Of a stretch of 64,000 nt of DNA, positions 19,784 to 60,004 are shown in pieces. Each line of letters starts with the position of its first letter. The first letter of the stretch is position 1. The notes below the pieces were generated by a model. It was not told where the DNA came from. It made no database searches and saw only the letters and a program-made list of their open reading frames with translations. The stretch lies in assembly GCF_014652235.1 (NCBI RefSeq), contig NZ_BMYK01000002.1:496708-560707 (forward strand). The letters run 5' to 3'. This DNA comes from Pseudorhodoferax aquiterrae. Lineage in GTDB: Bacteria; Pseudomonadota; Gammaproteobacteria; Burkholderiales; Burkholderiaceae_C. Made by a program: the position numbers and the translations under genes.

Positions 19784-19820
19784 GGATTCTCCGGAGGTGT
19801 CAACGAAAAAAGCGGCCCGA

Positions 19821-23330: not shown

Positions 23331-23493
23331 GGGCAGCGGAAGCACCTCTGGGCGGGTCTTGGATGTGTTTCGGTCACACCAGCAAGGTCGATGCCACCTT
23401 GCAGCGGCCCTTCCCCGCCGGTCGTGCACCAAAACCGAGCGTGGGCGCGATGTTAAGGGCGCCCGCCATGGCCCGGACCGGCGGACGCCCCCC

Positions 23494-24432: not shown

Positions 24433-24522
24433 CGGATGCATGGTTCTTATCCGAATCATTTTATTGATGGCATGAGCTGGCAGACCGAAGATCGCAGGCT
24501 TCGATCTCTTGCGGCTGCTTCC

Positions 24523-26115
24523 ATGTCCGACCAACCCACCGTCCGCGAAGCCGTGCTCGCGCTGCTGCGCAGCTTCGGCATCGACACCATCTTCGGCAAC
24601 CCCGGCTCGACCGAGCTACCGCTGTTCCTCGACTTCCCGGACGACTTCCGCTACGTCCTGGGCCTGCAGGAATCCGTGGTCGTGGGCATGGCCGACGGCT
24701 ACGCCCAGGCCACGGGCAATGCGGCCTTCGTCAACCTGCACTCGGCCGCCGGCGTCGGCCACGCCATGGGCAACATCTTCACGGCGCACAAGAACCGCAC
24801 GCCCATGGTCATCACGGCCGGCCAACAGGCGCGCTCCATCCTGCCGTTCGAGCCCTTCCTGTTCTCGGCCCAGGCGACCGAGCTGCCCAAGCCCTATGTC
24901 AAGTGGAGCGTGGAGCCCGCCCGGGCCGAGGACGTGCCGCTGGCCATCGCGCGCGCCTACTACATCGCCATGCAGGAGCCCAAGGGCCCGGTGCTGGTGT
25001 CGATTCCGGCCGACGACTGGGCGCGGCCGACCGAGCCGGTGCTGGCGCGCACGGTGAGCCAGGTGGCGCGGCCCGACCCGGCCCTGCTCGAACGGATCGG
25101 CCAGTTGCTGGAGGCCAGCCGCCGGCCGGCCCTGGTGGTCGGGGCCGCCACCGACCGCGCCGGCGCCTGGGACGCCACCGTGGCGCTGGCCGAGCGCCAC
25201 CAGGCGCGCGTGTGGATCGCGCCCATGTCGGGCCGCGCCGGCTTTCCGGAAGACCACCCGCTGTTCGCCGGCTTCCTGCCGGCCATGCGCGAGCAGATCG
25301 TCGCCAAGCTGGCCGGGCACGACTTCGTGCTCGCGCTCGGCGCGCCGGCCTTCACCTACCACGTGGAGGGGGCCGGCCCGCACCTGCCGGCGGGCGCCAG
25401 CCTGGCGCAGATCGTCGACGACCCGCAGGTCGCGGCCTGGGCACCCGTGGGCCTGGCGGTGGTCGGCAACATCCGGCTCGCGCTCGAGGACCTGCTGGCC
25501 CGGCCGGCAAGCGCCACGGCCCACCGCGAGCCGCCGCCCGCCCGCCAGCCGGCCCCGGTGCCGCCGGCCCCCGCGGCGGGCCAACGCCCGTCCACCGCCT
25601 GGGTGCTGCACCGGCTCGACCAGTTGCGGCCGGCGGACGCCGTGGTGGTCGAGGAAGCGCCCAGCGCGCGCCCGACCATGCAGCAGCAGCTGCCCATGCG
25701 CGCGGCCGCCAGCTTCTACACCATGTGCAGCGGCGGCCTGGGCTACAGCCTGCCGGCCGCCGTGGGCGTAGCGCTGGGCCGGCCCGGCCAGCGCGTGATC
25801 GCGCTGGTCGGCGACGGCTCGGCCATGTACGCGATCCAGGCGCTGTGGAGCGCGGCCCAGCTGCGGCTGCCGCTCACGGTGCTGATCCTCAAGAACCGCA
25901 GCTACGCGGCGCTCAACATGTTCGCGCCGGCCTTCGGCTTCGCGGCCGGCGCCGAGCTGCCCGGCACCGCCCTGCCCGACCTGGACTTCGTGGCGCTGGC
26001 CCACGGCCATGGCTGCCAGGGGCTGCGCGCGGCCGATGGCCAAGCGCTGGAACGCCTGCTGCCGCAGGCGCTGGCCGCGACCACGCCGACGCTGCTGGAA
26101 ATCGACGTGGACTGA
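24523..26115 (+). CDS. mdlC: Benzoylformate decarboxylase
   Basis: A 530-residue thiamine-diphosphate enzyme converting benzoylformate to benzaldehyde and CO2 in mandelate degradation. The Pseudomonas putida active-site set is present: Ser29 in GNPGSTE, Glu49 in LQES, His72 in NLHSAAG and the His of FTYHVEG (equivalents of Ser26, Glu47, His70, His281 in that enzyme, from memory). The ThDP-binding motif begins VGDGSAMYAIQ. Length matches the family. An Ala/Pro-rich linker lies between the middle and C-terminal domains. A related 2-keto acid could be the true substrate. Followed by a Bug protein 26 bases downstream. Confidence 0.88.
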   Translation: MSDQPTVREAVLALLRSFGIDTIFGNPGSTELPLFLDFPDDFRYVLGLQESVVVGMADGYAQATGNAAFVNLHSAAGVGHAMGNIFTAHKNRTPMVITAGQQARSILPFEPFLFSAQATELPKPYVKWSVEPARAEDVPLAIARAYYIAMQEPKGPVLVSIPADDWARPTEPVLARTVSQVARPDPALLERIGQLLEASRRPALVVGAATDRAGAWDATVALAERHQARVWIAPMSGRAGFPEDHPLFAGFLPAMREQIVAKLAGHDFVLALGAPAFTYHVEGAGPHLPAGASLAQIVDDPQVAAWAPVGLAVVGNIRLALEDLLARPASATAHREPPPARQPAPVPPAPAAGQRPSTAWVLHRLDQLRPADAVVVEEAPSARPTMQQQLPMRAAASFYTMCSGGLGYSLPAAVGVALGRPGQRVIALVGDGSAMYAIQALWSAAQLRLPLTVLILKNRSYAALNMFAPAFGFAAGAELPGTALPDLDFVALAHGHGCQGLRAADGQALERLLPQALAATTPTLLEIDVD

Positions 26116-26141
26116 ACCACACCACAAAAAAGGAGACAAGC

Positions 26142-27107
26142 ATGACCATTCCCCGCCGAACCGCCCTGGCCAGCCTGGCCGCGTTCTCTGTCATTCGCGC
26201 CCATGCCCAGGCCTGGCCCGCCAAGCCGATCCGCGTGGTCGTGAACTTCCCGCCCGGCGGTGCGGCCGACCAGATCGCGCGGGCGGTCGGCACCCCGCTG
26301 TCCGAAGCCCTGGGCCAGCCCGTGGTCGTGGAGAACCGCGGCGGCGCCAACGGCAACATCGGCGGCGAGGCCGTGGCCAAGGCCGCGCCGGACGGCTACA
26401 CCCTGCTCATGAGCTCGGGCGGCATGGTCTCGGTGAATCCGCACATCTATGCCCGCATGCCGTTCGACCCGGTGCGCGACATCGTGCCCGTGGCCTCGGC
26501 CGCGCGCGTGCTGGTCTACCTGCTCGTGCGGCCCGACCTGCCGCCCAGGAACATCGCCGAATTCATCGCCTACCTGAAGGCCAACCCAGGCAAGCTCTCC
26601 TACGGCTCGCCCGGCAACGGCAGCTCGCCGCACCTGGCCGGCGAGATGATGAAGGCGCAGGCCAACGTGTTCTCCGTGCACGTGCCCTACCGGGGCGCCG
26701 CGCCCGCACTGCAGGACCTGCTGGCCGGCCAGATCGACTACTTCTTCGATCCCGGCATCGGCCTGAACCAGGTGCGCGCCGGCAAGCTGCGCCTGCTGGC
26801 GGTGGGCAGCCCCAAGCGCTCGCCGGCCTTCCCCGAGGTGCCCACGCTGGACGAGGCCGGGCTCAAGGGCTTCGACGCAGACACGGTGTTCGGCTTCTAC
26901 GCGCCGGCCGGCACGCCGGCCGAGGTGATCGCGCGGCTGAACCGCGAGATCAACCGCATCCTGCAGACGGCGCCGCTGCGCGAACGCATGCTGGCGCTCG
27001 GTGGCGAGGCATTGCCGCTGACGCCCGAGCAGTTCCACCAGCGCGCGGAAGAGGACTCCAAACGCTTCGGGGCCATCATCAAGGCGCGCGGCATCCGCGG
27101 GGATTAG
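26142..27107 (+). CDS. Bug/TctC-family periplasmic binding protein
   Basis: A 321-residue tripartite-tricarboxylate-type solute receptor. Signal peptide through RAHA (about residues 1-22), then WPAKPIRVVVNFPPGGAADQIAR, the family hallmark, and VVENRGGANGNIGGEAVAKA. A strong AGGAG lies just upstream. No TctA/TctB membrane genes are nearby, which is common for these expanded receptors in Burkholderiales. Its position after mdlC suggests an aromatic or 2-hydroxy acid ligand; that is inference. Its stop overlaps the convergent GH94 gene stop. Confidence 0.93.
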   Translation: MTIPRRTALASLAAFSVIRAHAQAWPAKPIRVVVNFPPGGAADQIARAVGTPLSEALGQPVVVENRGGANGNIGGEAVAKAAPDGYTLLMSSGGMVSVNPHIYARMPFDPVRDIVPVASAARVLVYLLVRPDLPPRNIAEFIAYLKANPGKLSYGSPGNGSSPHLAGEMMKAQANVFSVHVPYRGAAPALQDLLAGQIDYFFDPGIGLNQVRAGKLRLLAVGSPKRSPAFPEVPTLDEAGLKGFDADTVFGFYAPAGTPAEVIARLNREINRILQTAPLRERMLALGGEALPLTPEQFHQRAEEDSKRFGAIIKARGIRGD

Positions 27108-30100
27108 CCCAGCACGATCTCCAGCGTGGCGCCGCCCCCAGCCTGCGCGAGTGCGTCCATCCAGTCGGTCAGCGCCACACTGGCCGGGCCCGGGCGGTAG
27201 CGGTTGGCGAGCCGCGTGAATGCCAGCGGCCGCCCGTTCAACGCCAGCTGCTGCACGCCGCAGCCGCGTGGTCCGACGCGGTAACGCACCTGCACAGCGG
27301 TGCCGCGCAGGCAAGCCTGGGCGACCAGGCCGTCCAGGCCCCGCGGCATCACCGGGTCGAAGTGGACGGCGTCGTGGCTGCCGCGCAGGCCCAGCAGCTG
27401 GCGCACGACCAGGCTCAGCGCGATGCCTGCGCCGCTGGAGTACACGCGCCAGCCGCCCTGCACGGCCACTTCGCCGGCAAGCAATCGGTCGTAACGCGCC
27501 GCGGCCTCGTAGCGGTCATTGAACGCTGCATCGGAACTCGAGTAGTAGCAGTTGGCCTGGCGCAGCCGCGCCTGCGGCAGCCAAGTCTGCATGCCGATCG
27601 GGTTGGCCTGGCACAGGGCCTCGAAGAAGGCCTCGGCGTCGCCATGCTGCGCGAGCGCCTCGGCGTAGCGCAGGTGGGCGTGGGTGTACATGAGGCCGAT
27701 CTCGCGGCCGAAGAAGCTGGCGCTCTCGGCCCGCTGGAACAGGGTCTGCGGGCCGCCGCGGTAGGCCAGCGGGCGGTCGAACAGGCGGGCGCCATCGGGG
27801 CCCAGCAGGTGCGTGCGGACCAAAGCCAGGTGCTGAGCCGCCTGGTCCGGGTCCAGCATCTCGTTGATGACGGCGTGGACCATGGGCAGCAGGCTGTAAT
27901 GGGCGCCCGTCAGCGCGTCGCATGGATGCAGCAGGTAGCGCGGCGCGCCGGCGGCCTCGAACAGGGCGTAGCCTGCCAGCACGCCATCGGGCATGAGCTG
28001 CTGCTGGAAGTCTTGCAGCACCGCCTGGGCCTGTACGGCCAGCGCATCGGCCTGGTCCGTGCGGCCCAGGGCCTGCAGCCCCTGCCCCAGCGTGCGCAGC
28101 ATCTGGTAGTGCAGCGTCACGGTCCAGGCACTGCACAGCCGCTCGCGCAGCGCCGGGTCGGCCGGCTGCAGCGCATCGTTCCAGTCGCCATGGCCGTAGG
28201 CGGCCAGCCGGGTGGCCGGGATGCGCCGCTGCGCGATGACGCCCAGCGCACGCTGCACGTGCTGCCAGACCGTGGCCTGCTCGGCTTGCGCGGGGCCCTC
28301 GGGGTGGAAGAACGGCAGCCGCTCGTCGAGCACGCCACCGTCGCCCGCGGCCTGCAGGTACTGCCCCAGCGCCACGAGCGGCCAGAACACGATGTCGCCG
28401 TGCGAGTCGCCGGCGCGCACGTGGCGGTCGCGCGCGAAGAACATGAACCACTGCGGCCAGTCGCCATCGGGCTGCTGCTCGGCGAACACGCGCAGCAGGA
28501 GGTCGCGCAGCGGCGGCAGGCAGCCGTGCGCCAGCAGCAGTTCCACCGGGCCCTGGCTCACGTCGCGCGTGCCCCAGCCGCCGCCGGTGTACTGCTCCAG
28601 TCCGCGCGGCGCGAGGTAGTGCACGAGCGCGTTGTCCTGCAGCCAGGGCAGCCACTCGGCCAGCGCCGACAGTCTGGGTCGGGCCGTGCCCGGCGGCAGT
28701 TCCAGCTCAGGCAGGCGCAGCGCAGGCAGGCGGGGCAAGGCGGCATCGGGCGCGGCCAGCGGGCCGAGCAGCTCGGAGCGCAGCGTCAGGCCGAAGACGG
28801 CGCACGGCAGCGTCCGCAGGCACAAAAAGGGCTGGTCGCGCGATCGCCCGTCCAGGTACAGCAGCTCGTCCGCACCCACATGCTCCAGCAGCGCCGCGCT
28901 GCCTGCGTCCGGCTGCAATGCGAAGCTGCCGCCCGGGTACTGCCGCTGCGCGGCGCTGCCGGGCGCGGGCGCCACGGTCACCGCGCCGTCCGCGCCGCGC
29001 CGCCACGCGGGCATGCCCGGCGCGAGCCCGTCGTCGCCCTGCAGCGCCAGGTGGTGCGTGACGAGGAAGCGCACCGCGGGCCCGGCGTCCACCTGCAGCG
29101 CGAGCGACAGCGCATGGTCCTCGGTCGCGGCGCTGGCGCGGACCGTCAGCACGCCCTGCGCATGGGCATAGATCCACGCGCACTGCCCGGCGGACATGGC
29201 GAAGGCCGAGGGCAGCCCCAGCAGCCGCCATTGCCCGCCGATCTCCACCAGCACCCGCTGCCCGCTGCCGCGGTGCAGACCCAGGTAGCTGCGCACGGTG
29301 GACAGCAGCCGGTTGCTGCTCACATGGCCCTGGGTCACCATGGAATGGAACACCCCGCCCATCCAGCAGGTGCTGGTCAGGCTGCGCTCGTCGGGCACCA
29401 GGTGCGCGCCCGTGCGCAAGATCTGGCCATGCGGGCGCAGTGTCTGGCTTTCCTTGCGCGGCAGCGCCACATGGGTGCCGAAGGCCGCGAAGAAGGACAG
29501 CAGCCGCCCTTCGGCGTCGCGCTCCACCTGGCGCCACGGCAGTGCAAACCGCTGGGCCAGCTCCGACTCGGACAGCGCGTGCGTCGCCAGGTCGGCGGCC
29601 CGCGTGAACAGGCTGGGCGCGGCCGCGCGCCAGGGCGGGCCCGGCTCGGCCGGTGCCGGCGCAGCCGCCGCCAGCGCCGCCCAGGCATCGGCCTGGGCCA
29701 GGTCGGCCGCGCCGGTGGCCTGGGGGTGGTCGGCCTGCACGCCGGCGAAGAAGCCCAGCCGCGCACCGGCCTGCGCGGGCAGCACGCAGGGCGCGTCCTG
29801 CAGCGCCAGCATGGCGTGCTCGTGCTGCAGACGCTGGTTGGGCAAATCGGCCGTGGCGACCACAGGGGAGGCGCCGCTGCGCCAGCCCAGGCCGATGGAC
29901 TGCAGGGCGTCCGTCGCGTAGCCGACCGCACGCCGCAGCGAACCCAGCAGCAGCCAGGGATGGCGCTGGCCCGCGCCCGCCAGGTTCTGCCGTGTCGCCA
30001 GCACCGTGCCACGCCAGGGATGGTCCAGCGGCACATGGTCCAGGTACTGGCTGACGTAGTACTCGTTGATGCGGACGGCGCCATAGGGCGCCAGCGCGAC

Positions 30101-30487
30101 GTCCTGCAGCAGCACGAGGTCCACCGTCTGCGCACTGTCGCCCGCGTTGTGCAGGTCGACCTGCCAGGACCAGACCGGCGCGCTGGCATGCAGTTGGAGC
30201 CGCACCGCGTAGCGCAGAGCACCCCAGTTCCCACGCGCCTGCCACGCCCCGGCATGCAGGCGCCACTGCGCACCGCTGTCCGGCGACAGCAGGTTCAGGC
30301 TGTCCAGCACCGCGCCGTCCTGGCGGCGGCGCAGCCACAGGGCCGTGGTTGCCGCTTCGAGCGCATGGCCGGCGAAGAGCTGGAGGGTGGTGTCGCCGAA
30401 GTCCAGGCGGTGCAGCGTGCCGTTGGCATGGAAGGTCGCCGACAGGCCGCCGGGGCTGTTCAGCACAAGCTCGGAGGAAGCGCTCAT
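27104..30487 (-). CDS. GH94 phosphorylase, probable 1,2-beta-oligoglucan phosphorylase
   Basis: A 1127-residue protein without a signal peptide. An N-terminal beta-sandwich part (about 1-560) is followed by an (alpha/alpha)6 barrel with QYTGGGWGTRDVSQGP and YGHGDWNDAL, the Asp-containing GH94 catalytic motif (Asp768 and Asp771), then a C-terminal beta domain. Cellobiose and chitobiose phosphorylases are about 800 residues; a single-module protein near 1100 residues fits the 1,2-beta-oligoglucan phosphorylase group. The expected reaction is sophoro-oligosaccharide plus phosphate to glucose-1-phosphate. The GH144 and GH1 neighbours support this. Start overlaps the previous stop by four bases. 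Last gene of the operon. Confidence 0.8.
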   Translation of the reverse strand: MSASSELVLNSPGGLSATFHANGTLHRLDFGDTTLQLFAGHALEAATTALWLRRRQDGAVLDSLNLLSPDSGAQWRLHAGAWQARGNWGALRYAVRLQLHASAPVWSWQVDLHNAGDSAQTVDLVLLQDVALAPYGAVRINEYYVSQYLDHVPLDHPWRGTVLATRQNLAGAGQRHPWLLLGSLRRAVGYATDALQSIGLGWRSGASPVVATADLPNQRLQHEHAMLALQDAPCVLPAQAGARLGFFAGVQADHPQATGAADLAQADAWAALAAAAPAPAEPGPPWRAAAPSLFTRAADLATHALSESELAQRFALPWRQVERDAEGRLLSFFAAFGTHVALPRKESQTLRPHGQILRTGAHLVPDERSLTSTCWMGGVFHSMVTQGHVSSNRLLSTVRSYLGLHRGSGQRVLVEIGGQWRLLGLPSAFAMSAGQCAWIYAHAQGVLTVRASAATEDHALSLALQVDAGPAVRFLVTHHLALQGDDGLAPGMPAWRRGADGAVTVAPAPGSAAQRQYPGGSFALQPDAGSAALLEHVGADELLYLDGRSRDQPFLCLRTLPCAVFGLTLRSELLGPLAAPDAALPRLPALRLPELELPPGTARPRLSALAEWLPWLQDNALVHYLAPRGLEQYTGGGWGTRDVSQGPVELLLAHGCLPPLRDLLLRVFAEQQPDGDWPQWFMFFARDRHVRAGDSHGDIVFWPLVALGQYLQAAGDGGVLDERLPFFHPEGPAQAEQATVWQHVQRALGVIAQRRIPATRLAAYGHGDWNDALQPADPALRERLCSAWTVTLHYQMLRTLGQGLQALGRTDQADALAVQAQAVLQDFQQQLMPDGVLAGYALFEAAGAPRYLLHPCDALTGAHYSLLPMVHAVINEMLDPDQAAQHLALVRTHLLGPDGARLFDRPLAYRGGPQTLFQRAESASFFGREIGLMYTHAHLRYAEALAQHGDAEAFFEALCQANPIGMQTWLPQARLRQANCYYSSSDAAFNDRYEAAARYDRLLAGEVAVQGGWRVYSSGAGIALSLVVRQLLGLRGSHDAVHFDPVMPRGLDGLVAQACLRGTAVQVRYRVGPRGCGVQQLALNGRPLAFTRLANRYRPGPASVALTDWMDALAQAGGGATLEIVLG

Positions 30488-33400
30488 GGGGACGAAAGGG
30501 GCAGACGGTGGAGGGATGGGCAGGGCGGCAGGCTGCGCCCGCCGGCAGCGGCCGTGTAGCGCACGCGGGCCGGCAAGCGGTGCACCACGAGGCCGGCGGC
30601 CGGCAGGCAGGCCAACGGCCGGCCGTCGATGCTGGCGCGCCCAGGTGCCGCGCCGTCGGGCAGCGCGATGACCAGCCCGCCGGCAGGCGGCTGCATGCCG
30701 CCTGCGATGTCCACGGTGGTGGTCGCGCCTGCGCGGCGGGCGCGGTAGCTCAGTGGCCCGAGCGGCGTGTGCAGCGCGCGCAGTGCGAGGCCCTGGCCCT
30801 GCAGCCAGGCCGGCGCCACGCCCGCGCCGAGCACCCAGGCCGCGCGCTCGGGCGCCTGGTAGGCGAACAGGTCCAGCGCGGCGCGCAGGAAGTCCGACGC
30901 CACCCAGCCATGCGGCATGTCGCCGACGAAGCGCGGCGCGCGCGGGTCGCGGCCGACGACCTCGGCCCACTGCCGCCAGCCCAGCGGACGGCGGTCGCGC
31001 AGGAAGTAGTCGGCTGCGGCCAGCGCACGCGCGCGCTCGCCCAGGCGCAGCAACGTGCCGACGGTGCGCCATTCATACGGGGTGTAGGCATCCCAGGTGG
31101 GGGGACCGTCGCGGCGCTCCGTGAAGTTGCGCCAGTACTGCGCGAAGGTGGCCTGCAGCGCAGCCGGCGGCAGCACACCCTGCAGGCCGGCCGGTGCCAG
31201 GGCCACGGTGGTGGAGGTCGCGTCGAAGTCGCCGCGGTCGGCCGCGCCCGGGATCGCGGCCATGCCGTACCGGTGCTGCGCCTGGGCGATGGACGCCAGC
31301 ACGTCGCGCTGGAAATCGGCCAGCTGCGCCTGCCAGTGCGCCGCGGCCGCCGTGTCGCCCAGCGCCTGCGCCATGGCCACGCCATCGGCATAGCCCAAGA
31401 GGCCCCAGAAGTTGTCCCAGTACGCATAGGCGGCCTGGTCGGAATAGCCTTCGTGGCTGATGGAGGGTGGCAGCAGGCCGAGGTAGAGGCTGCGCTCGGG
31501 CGTGCCGTTCTTCTGCGTGCCCTCCTCGGCCCGCAGGCCGTCCATGTAGCGGAGCACCTTGCTGGCGGCCGGCCACTGCCGGCGCAGCCAGTCCAGGTCG
31601 CCGGTGTGCCGCCAGGTGGTGGCCAGCAGGTGCAGGTAGGCGCCCATGCTGTCGTTCTCGGGCACCGGATCGGCGCCGCGCGCATCGATGCAGCAGGGCA
31701 CCTTGCCGTTGGCGAAGAGCTGCGGCGTGAACCAGTCGGCGTAGGCCCGCACCACCTCGGCATGGCCCAGGCTGGCCAGCGCGGCACCGGTCATCGCGCC
31801 GTCGCGGATCCAGGAGCGCGCATACGCGCGCGTGCCAGGCCGGATCGCCGCGCCCTGCAGGTTGATCAGGATGTGGGCCTGGGCCGCACGCACCGTGTCG
31901 GCCAGGCCCTGCGTGTCGCCTTCGATCCGCAGGCCGGTGCGGTTCAGCCGCGCGGTCCATTGGGCGGCGCTGCGCTGGCGCGCCGTCTCGAACCATGCGG
32001 CCGGCGCCACGCCCCGCGGCAACCGGGCCGGCCCGGCCTGCGGCAGCACGACCACGATGTCGCGGCTGGCGCCGGGCGGCAGCTGCAGCGCGTACTGCAG
32101 CGCCACCGCGGCGAACCCTTGCGGGTCCTCCCAATGCACGGCGCCATCGGCATCGGCCGGCTCGCGCAGTGCCCGTAGGCCGCCCGCGCCGCCCTGGCCG
32201 AACAGCAGCCGCGTGGGCCGGGTGGTGGTCATGAGCACCGGCTGGCCATCGCGCGCCAGCACGCCGTCGTGCCAGTCCAGGCGGTGCAGCGGCGCGACAC
32301 CGCCCGGCACGTTCAGGAACTGCGTCGGCGGATTGACCTGGAACGGGCGCAGCGCGAGCCACAGCGTCATGGTCTGCGCCCGCCGTGCGGGGTTGTGCAC
32401 CCGGTAGCGCACCTGCGTCTGCAGGCCACCGGCTTCGTCGGCGAGGGCTGTCGTTTGGAGGCCGAACCGCGGGTGCACCCACGTGACCTGCGGGATCGGC
32501 AGATGGCCGCGCGCGAGGCCCTGCGCCAGCTGCACATCGGCCCAGCCATGCAGCTGGCCGTCGACCTCGACGAAAGGTTCGAGCGAGGGACCGGCCTTCA
32601 TCGGTTCCACGGCGCCGTCTTCGGACATCAGCGCCTGCTGGCCCCCCCCAGGCACGCCCAGCACGGTCCAGTAGGCCTGCTCCCCGCTGAACCCGCGCGG
32701 AAACTGTCCGCGTGCAGAGAACGCGGCCTGCTTGTCGACCAGGGCGTTCGGCGAGTCCAAGGCGCCGGCCGCCAGCACCTCGACGCGTTGCAGCGCGAGG
32801 CGCTCGCCTGCCCCCTGCTCGAGCACCAGACGCAGCTGCCGCGCTTCCTGCTCCGGGGTGTGGAGCACCTCGGCGCCGCCCAGGCCGGCCGCCACCCGCT
32901 GCACCGGCCACCAGTCCCGCCCATCCAGCGAACCCTCGACGCGGTAGCGGCTGGCGTGCTGGCCGCTCGCCCAGTGCAGCACCAGGCCGCTGAACTCGCG
33001 CGGCCGGCCGAAGTCGGTCTGCAGCACCAGCGGCCGGCCGGCTGCAGGCGCACCGGCGTGCCAGGGCAAGGCCTGCGGCGCATCGGTGCCGGTCTGCCAG
33101 ACGGGCTCGGGCCACCGTGCGGGCGGCTCCGGCAGCGGGGTGATGGCCAGCGCGTCGAAGCACAGCGCACCGCGCGCACCCTGCGCGCCCACCAGCACCA
33201 GCTCGACGCGCTCGGTGTGGCGCAGCGTCTTGTCCGCCGCAGGGCCCCAGGCGAACGCGATGTGCCGGCGCCGAGTGGGAAGCGGCGTCCACTGCGCCGG
33301 TGCCACGAAGTCCGTGCGCCGGTGCCACCAGACGTTCAGGCCGCTCGCGTCGACGAGTTTGAGTTCGAGGGCAGAGAGGGCGCCCTGCCCGCGCACCGCG

Positions 33401-33651
33401 AGCGTGAGCGCGAAGTTGCCGTCGAAGGCCATCGGCAGTGCGCGACCCAAGGCCACATAGCCCGCGACGCGGCCGAAGTCGTAGCGCACGCAGGCCGCGC
33501 TGCCGCCGTCCGGTGCGGGCAGGAGTTCGGCCTGCACCTGGTCAGTGGCCGCCAGCTGCCAGGCCTGCAGGTCCGCGAAATCGGCGAGCACGCGCGCCTG
33601 CGACGGCCAGGGCAGCAGCCAGGCACAGAGCAGCAGCGCCAGCCACCGCAT
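30484..33651 (-). CDS. Secreted six-hairpin glycosidase-like protein with discoidin-type domain, family unknown
   Basis: A 1055-residue protein with a signal peptide (cleavage near residue 19, SQA-RV). After a jelly-roll-like region (about 20-170), residues about 190-315 look like an F5/8-type C (discoidin) carbohydrate-binding domain (QTDFGRPREFSGLVLHWASG, RYRVEGSLDGRDW). A beta-sandwich follows, then an (alpha/alpha)6 region from about residue 560 with ARSWIRDGAMTGAAL near 612, PENDSMGAYLHLL, EGYSDQAAYAYWDNFWGLLGY and PYEWRTVGTLLRLG. The family is not recognised; the barrel recalls GH15/GH63-like and GH94-like folds. It lies between permease and phosphorylase genes, coupled to both, so a role on the same glucan is likely. 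Confidence 0.75.
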   Translation of the reverse strand: MRWLALLLCAWLLPWPSQARVLADFADLQAWQLAATDQVQAELLPAPDGGSAACVRYDFGRVAGYVALGRALPMAFDGNFALTLAVRGQGALSALELKLVDASGLNVWWHRRTDFVAPAQWTPLPTRRRHIAFAWGPAADKTLRHTERVELVLVGAQGARGALCFDALAITPLPEPPARWPEPVWQTGTDAPQALPWHAGAPAAGRPLVLQTDFGRPREFSGLVLHWASGQHASRYRVEGSLDGRDWWPVQRVAAGLGGAEVLHTPEQEARQLRLVLEQGAGERLALQRVEVLAAGALDSPNALVDKQAAFSARGQFPRGFSGEQAYWTVLGVPGGGQQALMSEDGAVEPMKAGPSLEPFVEVDGQLHGWADVQLAQGLARGHLPIPQVTWVHPRFGLQTTALADEAGGLQTQVRYRVHNPARRAQTMTLWLALRPFQVNPPTQFLNVPGGVAPLHRLDWHDGVLARDGQPVLMTTTRPTRLLFGQGGAGGLRALREPADADGAVHWEDPQGFAAVALQYALQLPPGASRDIVVVLPQAGPARLPRGVAPAAWFETARQRSAAQWTARLNRTGLRIEGDTQGLADTVRAAQAHILINLQGAAIRPGTRAYARSWIRDGAMTGAALASLGHAEVVRAYADWFTPQLFANGKVPCCIDARGADPVPENDSMGAYLHLLATTWRHTGDLDWLRRQWPAASKVLRYMDGLRAEEGTQKNGTPERSLYLGLLPPSISHEGYSDQAAYAYWDNFWGLLGYADGVAMAQALGDTAAAAHWQAQLADFQRDVLASIAQAQHRYGMAAIPGAADRGDFDATSTTVALAPAGLQGVLPPAALQATFAQYWRNFTERRDGPPTWDAYTPYEWRTVGTLLRLGERARALAAADYFLRDRRPLGWRQWAEVVGRDPRAPRFVGDMPHGWVASDFLRAALDLFAYQAPERAAWVLGAGVAPAWLQGQGLALRALHTPLGPLSYRARRAGATTTVDIAGGMQPPAGGLVIALPDGAAPGRASIDGRPLACLPAAGLVVHRLPARVRYTAAAGGRSLPPCPSLHRLPLSSP

Positions 33652-34478
33652 CACTTGACCCCGCCCGACAGGATGCCGCTCACGTAGAAGCGCTGCGTGC
33701 ACAGGAACAGCAGCAGCACGGGCAGAACGGTCACGACGGCGCCGGCCATCATGAGTTCGCTGTCCTGCACGTGCTCGCGCGAGAGCGAGGCCAGCGCCAG
33801 CGGCAGCGTGTGCAGGCGGTCGCCGGTCAGCACGATCAGCGGCCACATGAAGTCGTTCCAGCTGCCGAGAAAGGTCAGCACGGCCAGCGTGGCGAGCGCG
33901 GGGCGCAGCAAGGGCAGCACGATGCGCCGGAAGATGTAGAACTCGCCCGCGCCGTCCACGCGCGCGGCATCCAGCAGCTCGTCGGGGATGGTCTCGGCCT
34001 GGCGGCGGATCAGGAAGATGCCGAAGATGCTGGCCATGCCGGGAACCAGCACGCCCAGGTAGGTGTTGACCAGGCCCATGTTCTTGAGCAGCAGGAACAG
34101 CGGCAGCATGGCGACCTGGCCCGGGATGACCAGCGCGCTCACGAGCAGCTGAAAGATGCGTTCCTTGCCCTTGAACGCGAGCTTGGCGAAGGCGTAGCCC
34201 GCGGCGCTGTTGAAGGCCAGCGAGAGCAGCGTGCTGGCACCGGCCAGCAGCACGCTGTTGGCGATGGTGCGCCACAGGCCCTGCAGCGCGAACAGCGCAC
34301 GGTAGTTCTGCAGCGTGGGCTCGGCCGGCAACAAGGGCGGCGGCACCGTGCTGGCCTCGCCGGGGGCCATGAACGAGACGCTGAGCATCCAGACCAGCGG
34401 GCTCAGCGCGAACAGCGCGATTAGCAGCAAGAGGCCGTGGACGGCGATGCCCTGCCCCAGGGTGGTCCGACCGTTCAC
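33651..34478 (-). CDS. Sugar ABC transporter permease, MalG/UgpE type
   Basis: A 275-residue inner-membrane permease with six helices. The cytoplasmic coupling loop is seen as PDELLDAARVDGAGEFYIFRR near residue 170, the EAA motif that contacts the ATPase. The GTG start at 34478 overlaps the preceding permease stop as GTGA; no nearer ATG fits. Its stop shares one base with the next start (TGATG). Confidence 0.93.
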   Translation of the reverse strand: MNGRTTLGQGIAVHGLLLLIALFALSPLVWMLSVSFMAPGEASTVPPPLLPAEPTLQNYRALFALQGLWRTIANSVLLAGASTLLSLAFNSAAGYAFAKLAFKGKERIFQLLVSALVIPGQVAMLPLFLLLKNMGLVNTYLGVLVPGMASIFGIFLIRRQAETIPDELLDAARVDGAGEFYIFRRIVLPLLRPALATLAVLTFLGSWNDFMWPLIVLTGDRLHTLPLALASLSREHVQDSELMMAGAVVTVLPVLLLFLCTQRFYVSGILSGGVK

Positions 34479-35350
34479 CAGCGCCTCCAGCGGCGCAGCG
34501 CCAGCAGGGTGCCCGTGCAGGCCATCATGAGCACGAACAGCAGGAAGGCCACGGCGCTGGCCGAGCCTAGGTTCCACCACTTGAAGCCTTCCTCGTACAT
34601 CAGGTAGAGCACGCTGACGGTGCTGCGCGCCGGCCCGCCCTGGGTCATCACATAGGGCTCGCCGAACAGCTGGAAATAGCCTGTGACGGTGAGGATGCCC
34701 ACCATGCCCAGCGCGGGCGCCAGCAGCGGCAGCGTCACGCGCCGAAAACGCTGCCAGGCGCCGGCGCCGTCCACCGCCGCCGCCTCGTAGAGCTCGCGCG
34801 GGATGGCCTGCAGCCCGGCCAGCAGGATCACGGCGTTGTAGCCGAAGTTCTTCCAGACCGCGAACAGCACGATGGCCGGCATGGACCAGCGCGGATCGCC
34901 GAGCCAGTCCACGGGCGCGATGCCGACCTGCGCCAGCAGATGGTTGACCCAGCCGTAGCGCGTGTGCAGCAGGTAGCGCCAGATCACGGCCACGGCCACC
35001 ATGGTCGCGACCACGGGCGCGAACACCGCCGTGCGGAAGAAGCCCTGCAGGCGCGCCGCGGCCGCGTGCAGCAGCAGCGCGCACGCCAGCGACAGCCCCA
35101 GCGACAGCGGCACGCCGAGCAGCACGAAGTACAGCGTGTTGGCGAGCGCGTTCCAGAACTCCGCCGAGCGCAGCAGGGCCAGGTAGTTCTGCAGGCCCAC
35201 GAAGCGCAGCTGGCGCGGGTCGGCCAGCGCGTAGAGATCGAAGTCCGTGAGGCTGAGCAGGAAAGCCATGAGCACGGGCAACAGGAAGAACACGGCGATC
35301 AGCGCGAGCGCGGGGCCAGCGAACACCCAGGCGACCCATCGCTGCGTCAT
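34475..35350 (-). CDS. Sugar ABC transporter permease, MalF/UgpA type
   Basis: A 291-residue inner-membrane permease. Six hydrophobic segments and the EAA coupling motif PRELYEAAAVDGAGAWQRFRR near residue 190 are visible. It pairs with the following MalG-type permease. The ATG overlaps the binding-protein stop by four bases. In Listeria a sophoro-oligosaccharide ABC importer accompanies the 1,2-beta-oligoglucan phosphorylase gene, so a similar cargo is expected. Confidence 0.93.
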   Translation of the reverse strand: MTQRWVAWVFAGPALALIAVFFLLPVLMAFLLSLTDFDLYALADPRQLRFVGLQNYLALLRSAEFWNALANTLYFVLLGVPLSLGLSLACALLLHAAAARLQGFFRTAVFAPVVATMVAVAVIWRYLLHTRYGWVNHLLAQVGIAPVDWLGDPRWSMPAIVLFAVWKNFGYNAVILLAGLQAIPRELYEAAAVDGAGAWQRFRRVTLPLLAPALGMVGILTVTGYFQLFGEPYVMTQGGPARSTVSVLYLMYEEGFKWWNLGSASAVAFLLFVLMMACTGTLLALRRWRRW

Positions 35351-36639
35351 GCACGCGCCTCGGGGCCTTGCAGCAGCCAGCGGCGCTTGGCCAGGATGCC
35401 ATCGACCTCTGCATCGAGCGCAGCCAGCAGCGGCGCCGGCGCGCCCTGGCCGCGCACCAGCTGCTCGGCCGCGCGCTGCATCGCCACGGCGATGCGCTCC
35501 CACTCCAGCACGGCCGGCGCCGGCTTGACGCGCTGCAGCTGGTCGGCGAACGCCAGGGCGCGTGCGTCGGTGTCGAGCCCGGCCAGCGGCCAGGCGCTGC
35601 GGCGCGCCGGCAGGTTGCCGGTCAACGCATGGAAGCGCGCCTGCACTGCAGGTTCGCCCATGTACTCGACCAGGCGCCAGGCCGCGTCCTGCCGCGGGCT
35701 GTGCTTGTGCACCACGAGGCTGGCACCGCCGGCGATCGAGGCGCCCGGCCCCTGCGGCCCGGGCAGGGGTGCACAGCCCCAGCTGGCCTGCTGCTGCGGC
35801 GGCAGCCGGCGCCCGAGCTCGCCCATGCTCCAGGGCCCGGAGACGAAGCATGCGAAGCGGCCTTGGCCGAATTCGGTCCACAGGTTGCCGATCTGCTCCT
35901 TGCCCTGCAGGTCGGCCCAGCCGCGGCGGAAGAAGGCGCTGTAGAAGTCCAGCGCACGGCCGAAGCCGGGGTTGGCGAAGTTGCCGCGCGTGTCCTGCGC
36001 GCGCAGCAGGCTTTCGTCCTGTTGCAGCGCCAGTGCCAACAGCGGCTCGAACTCGTTGACGGCCAGGAACACCGGCCGGCCGCGGCCCGCGAGCCTGGCC
36101 TTCAGCGCCTCGAGCAGTTGCGACCAGTCGCCCCAGTCCTGCGCCATCCGCGTGAAACCGGCCTGCGCCAGCAGGTCGCGGCGGTAGAACAGCAAGCGCG
36201 TGTCCACGTACCAGGGCAGCCCCAGCAGGGCCGGTGCGCTGGTGGTCCCACGCGAGGCGATGCGCGCGGCCCGGTTGGTGGCCAGGATGCCGGGAAAATA
36301 GTCCTCCGTGTCCACCCGCGCCTGGACCGGCGCCAGCACACCGAGCTGGGCCATCTCCGCGATCCAGGTGTTGCCGAGCTGGAACACGTCGGGCAGGCTG
36401 TTGCCCACGTAGGCCGTGAGCAGCTTCTCGTGCGCGGAGGACCAGGGGATCTGCTGGACCTGCACAGAGATGCCAGGATGGCGCTGCGCGAAGCCCGGCA
36501 GCAGCTCCTTGACGACCTCAGCCTCGCGGCCCATGGCCCAGAACTGCAGGGGCTGCCCGCTGGAGGAGCCCATACAACCACTTAACGCGATCGACGCGCC
36601 GACACCCTGCAACAGCGCACGCCGACGCATGCTGGTCAC
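35347..36639 (-). CDS. Sugar ABC transporter substrate-binding lipoprotein
   Basis: A 430-residue extracytoplasmic solute-binding protein, family 1 (MalE-like). An N-terminal RRR is followed by a hydrophobic stretch and the lipobox LSGC near residue 22. Family features include the LPDVFQLGNTWIAEMAQLGVL and AGGASLVVHKHS segments. The GTG at 36639 is chosen because an AAGGG sits about eight bases upstream, as at the parallel repeat junction near 58.16 kb; an ATG three codons later is the alternative. A palindromic repeat fills the gap to the GH144 gene. Confidence 0.92.
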   Translation of the reverse strand: MTSMRRRALLQGVGASIALSGCMGSSSGQPLQFWAMGREAEVVKELLPGFAQRHPGISVQVQQIPWSSAHEKLLTAYVGNSLPDVFQLGNTWIAEMAQLGVLAPVQARVDTEDYFPGILATNRAARIASRGTTSAPALLGLPWYVDTRLLFYRRDLLAQAGFTRMAQDWGDWSQLLEALKARLAGRGRPVFLAVNEFEPLLALALQQDESLLRAQDTRGNFANPGFGRALDFYSAFFRRGWADLQGKEQIGNLWTEFGQGRFACFVSGPWSMGELGRRLPPQQQASWGCAPLPGPQGPGASIAGGASLVVHKHSPRQDAAWRLVEYMGEPAVQARFHALTGNLPARRSAWPLAGLDTDARALAFADQLQRVKPAPAVLEWERIAVAMQRAAEQLVRGQGAPAPLLAALDAEVDGILAKRRWLLQGPEARA

Positions 36640-36712
36640 TGGTGCACCCTTCGGCCTGCGGCCTGTCCCGCCAAGCGGGAGCGAGCTTGCTTGGGGCGGC
36701 CCGGCGCTGCGC
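36640..36712 (-). repeat. Dispersed GC-rich repeat filling an operon junction (copy A)
   Basis: On the minus strand it runs from just after the GH144 stop (TGAGCGC) through GCGCCGGGCCGCCCCAAGCA and GGCGGGACAGGCCGCAGGCC to AAGGGTGC just before the GTG of the binding-protein gene. The same head and tail occur at 58009-58162, which has about 80 extra bases in the middle. The element appears to provide the Shine-Dalgarno of the downstream gene. Confidence 0.8.
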
Positions 36713-38242
36713 TCACGACACCTCGTCCGCGTCGCCCTCGCTGAGCCAGCCGCCCTCGAACCCGGCCCGCTCCAGCCCCAGCCGCACCGCGGGGTGACTG
36801 CGCATGCGTTCCCAGACCAGGCCGCTGCGGTGGTTCTCGAACATGGCCACGATCGGCCCCTGGTCGATGCCCAGGTAGTCGGTGTCCACCCAGCCGAACC
36901 CCGGCTTGATGCTGCCGTGCCTGAGCGTCACATCGGCCGGCACGCTCTGGTTGAAGGCGTCGAAGAAGCCGTACGAGCCCATGATGTACGGGCCGTGCTG
37001 GCGCACCATGCTGGCCAGCGTCGGCAACACGATCTCGGGCGCGAACGGCAGCGATGCGGCGACGGCCGTGGGCGTGATCGTGCCGTCGTCCACGATGCCG
37101 TCCAGCCCCACGCCGCGCGCCGCGTAGGTGCGAAAGCGCCGCGGTGCACCCTTGACGCTGCGCACCACGTCGGCCGGGCCGTTGCAGGCGGCCAGGCCCC
37201 ACATGCTGCTGCCGTAGCCCTTCCAGCCCAGCGGGTTGCGTTCGGCATAGGCCTGGTGCGCATAGGCGGCACGGCGCGAGTTCTCGAAGTAGTCCAGGCC
37301 CTTTCTGCGCATGAAGGCATCGCCGACGCCGCGCAGATCCAGCCAGACCTGGCTGTACTGGTGGCCGAACAGCGGGCCGAAGCTCAGGTGCGTCTGGCCT
37401 TCGACCGCACCCCAGTGGTCTGCGTAGCCGCGCGTCCAGGCCGCGTAGGCGTCGCCGCGCGCGGGATGGGTGGGCGAGCCCAGCGCGAGGATGTAGACCA
37501 GCATGGCCTCGTTGTAGCCGACCCAGTCCAGGCTCAGGAAACCGGCATGGCGCGCCTGCGCCGTGGCGCTGTGGTCGCGGCCCGAGACGCGCAGGTCCGC
37601 GGGCGCCTTGCGCACATCCGGCAGCCAGCCATGGGCGATGGCCGGCGCGCGCGGTTGCATCCAGCTCCAGTCCACCCGTTCGTACAGGGCCGCGCTGGTG
37701 CGACGGATGTCCTGCTCGACCGGGTCGTCGCCATCGAAGTACTGGCCTGCGAACAGCACGCCGGCCATCAGCAGTGCGGTGTCCACGCTGGACAGCTCGA
37801 TCTGCCCGTAGCGCCGCCCGCTGGACAGGTCGAGGAAACGGTAGAAGAAGCCGCGGTAGCCGGCCATGCCCCGCTCCGCCTCGCCCTGCGGCGCGTTGAG
37901 CAGGAAGCGCAGCGTCCTGCGCGTGCGCGCCGCGGCCTGCGCGCGCCGCACATAGCCGCGCTCGGCGCCGATGCCGTAGGCCGTGAGACCGAAGCCGACC
38001 GCGGCGATGCTGCAGAACGAGGGCGAGGGAAAGCGGTCGGGCACCAGCCCCGTCACCGGATGGGCCGTCTCCCAGAAGTAGTTGAAGGTCTGGCGCTGCA
38101 GCCTGTCGAACGCGAAGTCCGGCGCTGCCGCGGCGGCACCGGCGGGCGTGTGCGCCAGCACCGGGCCGCCGGCGGCGGCCAGTGCGGCCAGGCAGAACTG
38201 GCGCCGCGAGGCCGCGGCGGGGGAGTGCAGGCGGAAGGTCAT
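36713..38242 (-). CDS. GH144-type endo-beta-1,2-glucanase (glucoamylase-like domain)
   Basis: A 509-residue exported (alpha/alpha)6 protein. N-terminus with SRRQFC and a hydrophobic stretch resembles a Tat signal. Family features: RQTFNYFWETAHPVTGLVPDR near residue 50, FCSIAAVGFGLTAYGIG, GYNEAMLVYILALGSPTHP near 245, GSSMWGLAACNGP and DDGTITPTAVAASLPFAPE near 395. These belong to the PF10091 glycoamylase group, whose characterised bacterial members (GH144) cut beta-1,2-glucan internally. GH15 glucoamylase is excluded by these motifs. A GAGGAG in the end of the GH1 gene precedes the ATG. It would make sophoro-oligosaccharides for the adjacent importer. Confidence 0.85.
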   Translation of the reverse strand: MTFRLHSPAAASRRQFCLAALAAAGGPVLAHTPAGAAAAAPDFAFDRLQRQTFNYFWETAHPVTGLVPDRFPSPSFCSIAAVGFGLTAYGIGAERGYVRRAQAAARTRRTLRFLLNAPQGEAERGMAGYRGFFYRFLDLSSGRRYGQIELSSVDTALLMAGVLFAGQYFDGDDPVEQDIRRTSAALYERVDWSWMQPRAPAIAHGWLPDVRKAPADLRVSGRDHSATAQARHAGFLSLDWVGYNEAMLVYILALGSPTHPARGDAYAAWTRGYADHWGAVEGQTHLSFGPLFGHQYSQVWLDLRGVGDAFMRRKGLDYFENSRRAAYAHQAYAERNPLGWKGYGSSMWGLAACNGPADVVRSVKGAPRRFRTYAARGVGLDGIVDDGTITPTAVAASLPFAPEIVLPTLASMVRQHGPYIMGSYGFFDAFNQSVPADVTLRHGSIKPGFGWVDTDYLGIDQGPIVAMFENHRSGLVWERMRSHPAVRLGLERAGFEGGWLSEGDADEVS

Positions 38243-38246
38243 GGCA

Positions 38247-39593
38247 TCACTCCTCGTCGAACAGGCATTGGCCATTGCTGGCGATCACGCGCGCATACCA
38301 GGCACCGCTGTCCTTGAGCGTGCGCCGCTGGTTGCGGTAGTCCACGTGCACGAGGCCGAAGCGCTTGGAATAGCCGTGCGCCCACTCCAGGTTGTCCAGC
38401 AGCGACCAGGCGTAGTAGCCGCGCAGGTCGCAGCCCTCGGCGATGGCCCGGTGCAGCACGCGCAGGTGCTGGCGCAGGTAGTCCGTGCGCAGCGCGTCGT
38501 GCACCGCCCCACCCTGCGCCACCGGCGGGTCGTCGAAGGCCGCGCCGTTCTCGGTGATGTAGACGGGCGGGTTGCCGTAGCGCGTGCGCACCCAGTTCAG
38601 CGTGTCCAGCAGACCCTGGGGGAACACCTCCCAGCCGGTCTCCGTGTAGGTGGCGCCGCGCTGCACGGGCCGCTCCACCGGCAGCGGAAAGCGGCCCGCA
38701 TCGTCGCGCACCACGTTGCGCGTGTAGTAGTTGATGCCCAGGAAGTCGATCGGGGTCCGGATGAGGTCCAGGTCCGACGCCGGAAACGCCGGCCAGGCCG
38801 CGCCGAACATGCGGACCAGCACCGCGTCGTAGCGGCCGCGGAACACCGGGTCCATGAAGTGCCGGTTCATGTAGGCATGGGCGCGGCGCGTGGCGACCCG
38901 GTCCTGCGGCGCATCGGAGGCCGGGTATTTGGGTTCCAGGTTCACAACCAGGCCGATGCGGTGCGCGCCGCTGGCCCGGTAGGCCTGCACCGCCTTGCCG
39001 TGGGCGCGCAGCAGGTTGTGCGCCACGATGGGCGCTTCGAACAGGTTGCGGTGCCCGGGCGCGAGCGCGCCCGAGAGGTAGCCGCCATCCATCACGACCC
39101 AGGGCTCGTTGAGCGTGGTCCACATCTTCACGCGGCCGTCCAGGCGCCGGAACACCAGATCGGCGTATTCGGCGAACCAGTCGGCGCTGTCGCGGTTGAG
39201 CCAGCCGCCGCGGTCGTCCAGGGCCGCCGGCAGGTCCCAGTGGTACAGCGTGGCGTTGGGGGCGATGCCGGCCTCGAGCAACTGGTCGACCAGGCGTTCG
39301 TAGAAGTCCAGGCCGGCGCTGTTCGCGGTGCCCGTGCCCTGCGGCAGCACGCGGCCCCAGGCGATGCTGAAGCGGTAGCTCTGCAAGCCCAGCCGCCGCA
39401 TCAGCGCGATGTCCTCGGGCCAGCGGCGGTAGTGGTCGCAGGCCACATCGCCCGTGTCGCCGCCGTGCACGAGGCCCGGCGTGTGGCAGAAGCGGTGCCA
39501 GATCGAGGCCCCGGCTCCATCGGCCAGGGGGGAACCCTCGATCTGGTAGGCGGCCGTCGCCGCGCCCCACAGGAAACCGTCTGGGAATGCCAT
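38247..39593 (-). CDS. GH1 beta-glucosidase
   Basis: A 448-residue retaining glycosidase with no signal peptide. It begins MAFPDGFLWGAATAAYQIEG, has the acid/base Glu163 in TTLNEPW and the nucleophile Glu348 in YITENG, and the aglycone-site Trp pair in AWSLLDNLEWAHGY. Length is standard. First gene of the operon. It would split sophorose or short beta-glucosides left after phosphorolysis in the cytoplasm. In Listeria the equivalent locus uses a GH3 enzyme, so GH1 is a substitution if the reading is right. Confidence 0.93.
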   Translation of the reverse strand: MAFPDGFLWGAATAAYQIEGSPLADGAGASIWHRFCHTPGLVHGGDTGDVACDHYRRWPEDIALMRRLGLQSYRFSIAWGRVLPQGTGTANSAGLDFYERLVDQLLEAGIAPNATLYHWDLPAALDDRGGWLNRDSADWFAEYADLVFRRLDGRVKMWTTLNEPWVVMDGGYLSGALAPGHRNLFEAPIVAHNLLRAHGKAVQAYRASGAHRIGLVVNLEPKYPASDAPQDRVATRRAHAYMNRHFMDPVFRGRYDAVLVRMFGAAWPAFPASDLDLIRTPIDFLGINYYTRNVVRDDAGRFPLPVERPVQRGATYTETGWEVFPQGLLDTLNWVRTRYGNPPVYITENGAAFDDPPVAQGGAVHDALRTDYLRQHLRVLHRAIAEGCDLRGYYAWSLLDNLEWAHGYSKRFGLVHVDYRNQRRTLKDSGAWYARVIASNGQCLFDEE

Positions 39594-39845: not shown

Positions 39846-39861
39846 ACAAGTTACAACTTGT
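39846..39861. promoter_or_regulatory. Inverted repeat, candidate operator of the beta-glucan operon
   Basis: ACAAGTTACAACTTGT: 7-bp arms ACAAGTT and AACTTGT around a 2-base centre. It lies in the AT-rich stretch about 255 bases upstream of the GH1 start. Dyads of this size are typical of LacI- or GntR-type sites. No regulator of those families is in the window. Confidence 0.4.
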
Positions 39862-39903: not shown

Positions 39904-40009
39904 TTCCATGTGCTAATCCGCGCTTGAAGCGCTCCGGCCAAGCCGTCGACGGAGTCCGCACCGTCCAATGGCCCCACAGGCCGCATGCCCGCGACCGGGC
40001 TGGAGACAC

Positions 40010-43066
<3,057 letters not shown>

Positions 43067-50213: not shown

Positions 50214-50278
50214 CGGCGGAATCGGAGCAGGCAAAAGGAAGGCATGCTATGCGCTCCGCACGACACCCCGGTGTCGCC

Positions 50279-50665: not shown

Positions 50666-50703
50666 GGTGTGTCCTCGTGTCGAACGGGTTGGAGAAAAAA
50701 ACA

Positions 50704-59938: not shown

Positions 59939-59959
59939 GAGCGCATGCGCCCCCTTGCG

Positions 59960-59994: not shown

Positions 59995-60004
59995 GGCCGC
60001 GCAG

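Follow-up and report, generated by a model that had tools for sequence, protein, structure and literature searches.

A predicted beta-1,2-glucan utilisation operon of Pseudorhodoferax aquiterrae and the conserved GH144-importer module around its secreted six-hairpin protein

Introduction

Bacterial gene clusters that combine enzymes for beta-1,2-glucan or its sophoro-oligosaccharides with components of an importer have been described in Listeria innocua (lin1838-lin1843), Streptomyces griseus (SGR_2422-2427) and Ignavibacterium album (the IALB_1185 cluster). Periplasmic beta-1,2-glucans have a role in osmotic adaptation and in plant-microbe contacts. Here we analyse a related operon of seven reading frames located at 27104-39593, on the minus strand, of a 64,000-nucleotide stretch of Pseudorhodoferax aquiterrae DNA (contig NZ_BMYK01000002.1), hereafter called the window. 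The operon encodes a glycoside hydrolase of family GH1, a GH144-type protein, a sugar-binding lipoprotein (SBP) and two permeases of an ATP-binding cassette (ABC) importer, a secreted protein of 1,055 residues (30484-33651) that we name 6H, and a GH94 protein of the 1,2-beta-oligoglucan phosphorylase (SOGP) type. Judged by sequence similarity, it is very probably an operon for the utilisation of beta-1,2-glucan (sophoro-oligosaccharides), and the Burkholderiales variant of a conserved proteobacterial locus.

The described clusters each share part of this makeup. The Listeria cluster has an SOGP (Lin1839), an ABC importer with a homologous SBP (Lin1841, 182 bits) and a beta-glucosidase; however, the latter belongs to GH3 (Lin1840) instead of GH1, a LacI regulator is present, the host is Gram-positive, and neither GH144 nor 6H is named in the accessible text of the two reports (PMC3960220, PMC12369401). 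The S. griseus cluster comprises a GH1 beta-1,2-glucosidase (SGR_2426), an importer and an endo-beta-1,2-glucanase homologue, but this homologue belongs to GH193 (SGR_2427) and not to GH144, and the accessible text of PMC12369401 names no SOGP or 6H for it. The I. album cluster, which comes from a distant phylum, is reported to contain two GH144 genes, a GH3 gene, an SOGP-type GH94 gene, a GH35 gene and a homologue of the sophoro-oligosaccharide SBP; it differs by its GH35 transglucosidase, and GH1 and 6H are not named in the available part of the report (PMC8861115). The order GH144, SBP, permease, permease, 6H is also that of a Xanthomonas-type locus, found in Xanthomonas sacchari R1 (L006) and comprising relatives of XcSGL (XCC2207) and of the Xanthomonas citri 'MalE' protein 3uor. 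There, LacI and TonB-receptor genes lie upstream, the GH1 and SOGP probes had no match in 26.5 kb, and edd, pgl, glk and zwf follow on the opposite strand. The 6H stretch of L006 (14947-18144) is unannotated and matches in three pieces, and its frame looks broken. In the open-licence literature, we found no recognisable description of 6H, of a GH15-like protein in a GH144 locus, or of the seven-gene order. What is new here is an operon variant with an apparently undescribed enzyme family (6H), related loci of other makeup being known.

The predicted phosphorylase and glucanase of the operon

The original prediction described seven genes on one strand with starts that overlap or nearly touch the preceding stop. 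The reading frames and their spacings along the operon (+4, +82, -4, -4, -1 and -4 bases) confirm this, with the exception of the 82-base interval between the GH144 and SBP genes, which is the sole real gap. All seven genes are present in the same order in Pseudorhodoferax soli (L009), in Pseudorhodoferax sp. Leaf265 (L010) and in a genome recorded as Variovorax boronicumulans (L011), with best-segment identities of 82 to 98 percent; because the gene order recurs intact in these three loci, it is not due to chance.

The GH94 gene (27104-30487) encodes a protein of 1,127 residues. The Pfam models SOGP_N (195 bits), SOGP_2nd (135 bits) and SOGP_4th (27.2 bits, cut-off 27) score above cut-off on this protein, and the general Glyco_hydro_94 model lies just under its own (25.9 bits, cut-off 27). 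Against PDB sequences, LpSOGP (5h3z) was matched with 560 bits and the next protein, a cellobiose phosphorylase, with 40 bits, and cellobiose phosphorylase was rejected as the identity of the window protein. The residues of the glucose, phosphate and acceptor sites of LpSOGP are named in PMC5309861, from whose numbering the aligned chain is offset by one, by our count. In the alignment, Q621, R630, D631, W758 and D760 of LpSOGP correspond to Q632, R641, D642, W769 and D771 of the window protein, and R907, E917, Y922, H924 and Y141 to R919, E929, Y934, H936 and Y144. LpSOGP Y1004 and S1005 lie beyond the aligned part, and the window protein has YSSG at 1016. This check covered the window protein and five others, one of them partial, L007 and L099 having yielded no SOGP frame. 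A GH94 protein of about 1127 residues and of SOGP type had been predicted from the DNA alone: the length and the domains agree with this, and by its similarity scores the protein appears to lie nearer to SOGP than to another phosphorylase.

The GH144 gene (36713-38242) encodes 509 residues. The protein starts with MTFRLHSPAAASRRQFC, in which a Tat-like leader (SRRQFC) is recognised by eye, and it is matched by PF10091 (Glycoamylase) with 268 bits (Pfam). Its closest solved relative is XcSGL (XCC2207; 8xul) with 525 bits, followed by six sequences at 187 to 141 bits that include the endo-beta-1,2-glucanase 5gzh. XcSGL is reported to be a GH144 enzyme that acts on beta-1,2-glucan and whose E239, F286 and Y367 define the clan (PMC12102758). 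E245, F292 and Y373 of the window protein align with these three residues, the offset of the XcSGL numbering having been set by taking Q225 of the crystallised chain as the E239Q mutant named in that report. In our reading of the 4qt9 and XcSGL alignments, D154 of the window protein stands in place of E142. With XcSGL as nearest relative and the three clan residues kept, the PF10091 protein is probably of GH144 type, as originally proposed, and its assignment to GH193 or to another SGL family was rejected.

The importer and the GH1 enzyme

The SBP (35347-36630, 427 residues) is matched by SBP_bac_1 (119 bits, Pfam) and carries a lipobox, LSGC, recognised by eye. Its comparison with PDB sequences (48 matched at 1e-5) placed first 3uor, the 'MalE' of Xanthomonas citri, with 421 bits, followed by Lin1841 (5ysb) with 182 bits and by a third sequence with 92 bits. 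Lin1841 is described as the sophoro-oligosaccharide-binding protein of Listeria (PMC12369401), and the sugar specificity of 3uor is listed as unknown (PMC7676653). Because a homologous SBP, 49 percent identical to that of the window, sits between the GH144 gene and the permease genes in L006, we predict a beta-1,2-gluco-oligosaccharide as the ligand of 3uor. If this is true, the X. citri 'MalE' is a beta-1,2-gluco-oligosaccharide receptor, and the context of the module will have predicted the ligand of a solved binding protein.

Both permeases, permease 1 (34475-35350, 291 residues, UgpA/MalF type) and permease 2 (33651-34478, 275 residues, GTG start, UgpE/MalG type), are matched by BPD_transp_1, with 54 and 66 bits respectively, and their best NCBIfam matches, UgpA and UgpE, are under cut-off. 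As the operon contains no ATPase gene and UgpC-like matches are found elsewhere in the genome (139 matches to the UgpC model, of which four exceed the curated threshold), the importer is likely powered by a shared ATPase encoded elsewhere. A ugpC gene lies near the X. sacchari locus.

The GH1 protein (38247-39593, 448 residues; an upstream in-frame ATG at 39644 is a possible alternative start) is matched by Glyco_hydro_1 (540 bits) and TIGR03356 (601.6 bits, cut-off 478.5), and its best PDB match is 6jfp (687 bits). No signal peptide is evident by eye, and we read the protein as cytoplasmic. A GH1 enzyme that prefers sophoro-oligosaccharides is reported from S. griseus (PMC12369401); this enzyme, SGR_2426 (structure 8kap), has W291 and Q229 at subsite +1.

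6H belongs to a conserved module

The block GH144-SBP-permease-permease-6H is a widely conserved proteobacterial module, which went unremarked in the original prediction; 6H itself had been given no role there. A profile of a five-sequence 6H alignment was compared with genome contigs; 438 relatives were found and the best 80, a set that leans to Brevundimonas and its near kin, were kept. At least 5.5 kb of upstream sequence is available for 67 of these 80 loci, and at least 9 kb on both sides for 52. A gene was counted as present wherever in the locus its tblastn probe scored more than 80 bits; the TonB-receptor, LacI and GH3 probes and two of the three GH144 probes were taken from two loci outside the 80, L005 and L006. 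SBP, permease 1 and permease 2 were found in all 67 evaluable loci and GH144 in 66 of them, with GH144 upstream of 6H, on the same strand and within 4.5 kb, in 64. In two others, L018 and L054, 6H and the GH144-importer block point away from each other. Among the 52 loci with both flanks, matches were obtained for a TonB receptor (45 loci), LacI (40), GH1 (32) and SOGP (4), and none for the GH3 probe. The commonest order, found in 18 of these 52, is LacI, TonB receptor, GH144, SBP, permease, permease, 6H; other orders of the module add GH1 on either side. From the record titles, the 6H loci belong mainly to Caulobacterales, Xanthomonadales and Burkholderiales; Steroidobacter and Myxococcota are among the few others.

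The four SOGP-bearing loci are L009, L010, L011 and L075 (Rubrivivax), the last of which has LacI, TonB receptor and SOGP together. Since the window yielded no match to the LacI and TonB probes and SOGP is present in just four of the 52 relatives, the window represents a branch in which the core is kept, SOGP and GH1 are inside the operon, and LacI and the receptor are not beside it.

Several observations nevertheless count against the reading of this operon, and of the module, as a beta-1,2-glucan locus. The TonB-receptor probes (two, at 1e-5) and the LacI probe had no match anywhere in the window; outer-membrane entry and regulation are thus left unexplained there, unlike in most relatives. 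By its lack of a receptor, the window differs from a carbohydrate utilisation (CUT) locus, which includes a TonB receptor. L078 has the SBP and the permeases, and no GH144 match in 10 kb. In L059 and L060, where the contig extends just 3 kb upstream of 6H, 6H was the sole probe to match, and as far as this stretch shows it seems to be outside a GH144-importer locus; in L060, it is flanked by OmpA-family and GGDEF proteins on one side and by a proton pyrophosphatase on the other. Finally, the linkage preference of the GH1 enzyme is not fixed by its sequence. Nine further loci without GH144 are short on that side, where the contig ends.

Other arrangements were also seen. On a Methylosinus plasmid (L007, 10960-17418), a distant 6H relative (29 percent identity) is divergent from a gene recorded as hypothetical protein that encodes an SOGP homologue; a GH15 gene lies farther on. 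No probe besides 6H matched in L008. In genome G030, the GH1, GH144 and 6H genes are adjacent, with no transporter between them (L105), and SOGP is on another contig. In Croceibacterium, a TonB receptor, a 'glucoamylase family protein' that is a GH144 homologue, and 6H are found.

Fold and candidate catalytic residues of 6H

The window 6H (30484-33651) starts with a secretion leader, recognised by eye, and F5_F8_type_C alone scores above the Pfam cut-off, with no catalytic family. Its AlphaFold model (predicted local distance difference test, pLDDT, 90.3; predicted template-modelling score, pTM, 0.90) is composed of an N-terminal beta-sandwich, the F5/8 type C domain, a supersandwich and an (alpha/alpha)6 barrel. 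This predicted structure fits the label "six-hairpin" that the secreted protein had initially received. The F5/8 type C domain is present in the 28 of 28 members scanned, and its best solved relatives are glucanase/chitosanase chains of 136 to 138 residues.

Pfam GH15 had no match to the window 6H at 0.1, and weak matches in three of the 28 members (best E 0.0014). When the 6H profile was aligned with ten GH15 proteins (hhalign), the probability was 92.6 to 92.7 and E about 4e-7, the match at E 4.2e-7 (probability 92.7) extending over 81 columns; a forced full-length alignment covered 342 columns, with a probability of 92.5 in local and 98.0 in global mode. The probabilities were 14.5 percent with SOGP, 0.7 with GH65 and 28 with the phosphorylase part of cyclic glucan synthases, and E was 6e-4 or worse for the five sets other than the best GH15 set. 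GDE_C amylo-1,6-glucosidases, GH65 and GH94 were rejected as nearest kin of the barrel, their profiles being weaker than one GH15 set; chains of GH65 and GH94 type nonetheless rank high in the fold comparison with the model. Because the sets are uneven in size and depth (template Neff 1.9 to 3.5, with 3.4 for GH65 and 3.5 for GH15; six SOGP sequences, three of them trimmed to the last 1,135 residues) and each E-value stands for a single comparison, we take the GH15 kinship of 6H as a lead.

The structural comparison provides a further likeness: among the 50 VIA-align matches to the 6H model, at least 500 residues are superposed at less than 4 A only with 1ug9, 1lf6 and 9ju0, that is, a glucodextranase (3.1 A over 536 residues, 13 percent identity), a bacterial glucoamylase and a dextran dextrinase, all of which we take to be GH15 enzymes. 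6H resembles these by its supersandwich and (alpha/alpha)6 barrel, and differs by its extra N-terminal domains. All 81 of the 6H sequences compared carry R616, D617, E734 and E897. R616-D617 aligns with the W-x-R-D motif of GH15, and E897 with a glutamate that is invariant in 10 of 10 GH15 members and that we take to be the general base. The second invariant glutamate, E734, lies near the acid motif: an ungapped shift made by hand aligns it with the glutamate of the GH15 WE motif, presumably the general acid, and puts YAYWD on FTYSK. E734 and E897 are named here as candidate general acid and general base. The list of 6H frames omits L004, L008 and L054 (length), L030 and L063 (cut frame) and later L006 (broken-looking frame); L008 was brought back in two of the alignments via its annotated frame.

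The kinship with GH15 must be set against the following points. The unforced match spans just 81 to 120 columns, which correspond to the first helical hairpin. A second GH15-like set reached 11 percent at best and the amylo-1,6-glucosidases 0.4 percent, which is no match. Before the manual shift, E734 is eight columns away from the WE-motif glutamate, itself conserved in 10 of 10 members. The highest VIA-align Z-scores are those of an alpha-L-fucosidase (25.5) and of human PGGHG (23.7), not of GH15 chains, and Foldseek ranks GH94 phosphorylases first (E 1.6e-15). As the fold comparison does not single out GH15, the anomer of the 6H substrate is not settled.

Among five matches gathered with a GH78 set in view, weak matches to the Pfam model Bac_rhamnosid6H were noticed in L183 (genome G367) and L184 (G311); these frames, of 1,150 and 1,090 residues, are 6H relatives with 41 and 44 percent identity. 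This model may draw in 6H proteins.

Proposed pathway and alternative readings

Sequence similarity supports the pathway initially proposed, which consisted of export of the endo-enzyme, import of oligosaccharides, phosphorolysis and final cleavage by GH1. In this pathway, the Tat-exported GH144 enzyme would cut beta-1,2-glucan in the periplasm; the secreted 6H would remove a linkage left intact by GH144, for which the single alpha-1,6 bond of alpha-1,6-cyclised beta-1,2-glucans is the likeliest candidate; the lipoprotein and the two permeases would import the oligosaccharides with an ATPase from elsewhere in the genome; the cytoplasmic SOGP would phosphorolyse chains of at least three units to glucose 1-phosphate; and the cytoplasmic GH1 enzyme would split the leftover sophorose.

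The step assigned to 6H is put forward tentatively. GH15 enzymes target alpha-glucosidic bonds, which in the case of glucodextranase are alpha-1,6 bonds. To our knowledge, the GH15 enzymes described all work from chain ends, so 6H would need a fragment released by GH144, or would differ from them. In the accessible text on natural beta-1,2-glucans, the alpha linkage mentioned is the alpha-1,6 one of the cyclised molecules (PMC11842490), which are reported to be made by Ralstonia, Xanthomonas and Cereibacter (PMC11842490; PMC11228985). The fragment left by a beta-1,2-glucanase is expected to carry this bond, which SOGP and beta-glucosidase would not pass, and a dedicated secreted alpha-enzyme that clears it would explain why 6H is so faithfully found beside GH144. 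An enzyme that closes the alpha-1,6 ring was not reported until 2024 (PMC11228985), and the accessible text of a review names enzymes for the beta-1,2 bonds and none for cutting the alpha-1,6 bond (PMC11842490). By its position beside a proven type of beta-1,2-glucanase, 6H is a direct candidate for this cleavage. It is conceivable, if rather doubtful, that 6H founds a new glycoside hydrolase family, distant from GH15, which breaks the single alpha-1,6 bond of cyclised beta-1,2-glucans. If so, the GH144-importer-6H module would be a dedicated proteobacterial scavenging pathway for alpha-1,6-cyclised periplasmic glucans.

Nearly as likely as the alpha-1,6 role is one in which 6H is exo-acting on beta-linkages, releasing glucose or sophorose from a chain end or removing a beta-1,6 side glucose. 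The first rank of the beta-acting GH94 phosphorylases in Foldseek would fit such an enzyme, as would the good alignment of GH116 beta-glucosidases with the model, and linear beta-1,2-glucans with beta-1,6 side chains are reported (PMC11842490). However, in the profile comparison one GH15 set scored better (E about 4e-7) than either of two GH94 sets (E no lower than 6e-4), and a beta-glucosidase is already supplied by GH1 in 32 of the 52 loci.

A different question is the origin of the glucan. That the operon mainly recycles the osmoregulated periplasmic glucan of the cell itself, rather than scavenging foreign glucan, appears unlikely. The genome has one OpgG-family gene, the Tat-like leader places the glucanase in the periplasm, the TonB-receptor probes match nothing in the window, and the one PF10091 match of the assembly is that of the window, so that the search revealed no cyclic glucan synthase of this kind in it. 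These features would suit recycling, but the TonB receptors and LacI regulators of the relatives (45 and 40 of 52 loci) fit uptake of, and induction by, an external sugar, and their loss in one branch is no proof of a changed role.

More improbable still is that 6H is a non-catalytic or weakly catalytic glucan-binding protein of the surface or periplasm that passes its ligand on to GH144 or the SBP. This would account for the F5/8 type C domain of all 28 members, with its glucanase and chitosanase relatives, and for the fact that the window protein exceeds the cut-off of no catalytic Pfam family; yet the four invariant residues described above are retained even in L007, at 29 percent identity, as a catalytic function would lead one to expect. 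Last, Pfam describes PF10091 as 'Putative glucoamylase', but an action of the GH94 and PF10091 proteins on cellodextrin, laminarin or starch is very hard to reconcile with the SOGP-specific domains and residues, the relation to XcSGL and the clan residues.

Occurrence in the order and surroundings of the operon

To place the operon variant within its order, 300 genomes were surveyed, that of the window included. A 6H match at 1e-10 was found in three of them (G000, G030 and, weakly, G010 with 1.9e-12 and 30 percent identity) and SOGP_N likewise in three (G000, G030 and G165). PF10091 was present in 62 of the 300: nine matches exceed 270 bits, in frames of 439 to 609 residues, and most of the others are in much longer frames (about 2,700 to 3,100 residues), comparable in size to a cyclic glucan synthase. 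The combination of SOGP with a full 6H and a short PF10091 protein was seen in G000 and G030 only.

Upstream of the operon, a divergent gene on the plus strand (39968-43066) encodes a hybrid histidine kinase that contains PAS, receiver and Hpt domains, and a perfect inverted repeat with 7-base arms and a 2-base centre, ACAAGTT-AC-AACTTGT, lies between the two (39846-39861). By inspection of the sequences, this repeat is identical in L009, and L010 and L011 have near-copies with one arm changed; the region around it is broadly conserved among the window and these three loci. The repeat is a possible operator. A frame with the same start region as the hybrid kinase is found at the corresponding place in L009; the kinase may be a regulator of the operon or a mere neighbour.

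The window has a G+C content of 71 percent and belongs to a genome of 7.1 Mb in 94 contigs. At the other end of the operon, the GH94 gene and a plus-strand frame with a TctC domain (24903-27107) meet end to end and share four bases. This frame is part of a region (18629-27107) that looks like another uptake and catabolic locus: its minus strand encodes a PnrA-like binding protein, a permease and an ABC ATPase, its plus strand a thiamine-pyrophosphate enzyme and the TctC-domain protein. Farther away, a chromate transporter is encoded beside a large efflux pump of AcrB type (49002-53895, minus strand), and a large frame with a passenger-associated transport repeat (59945-62944) is possibly an autotransporter.

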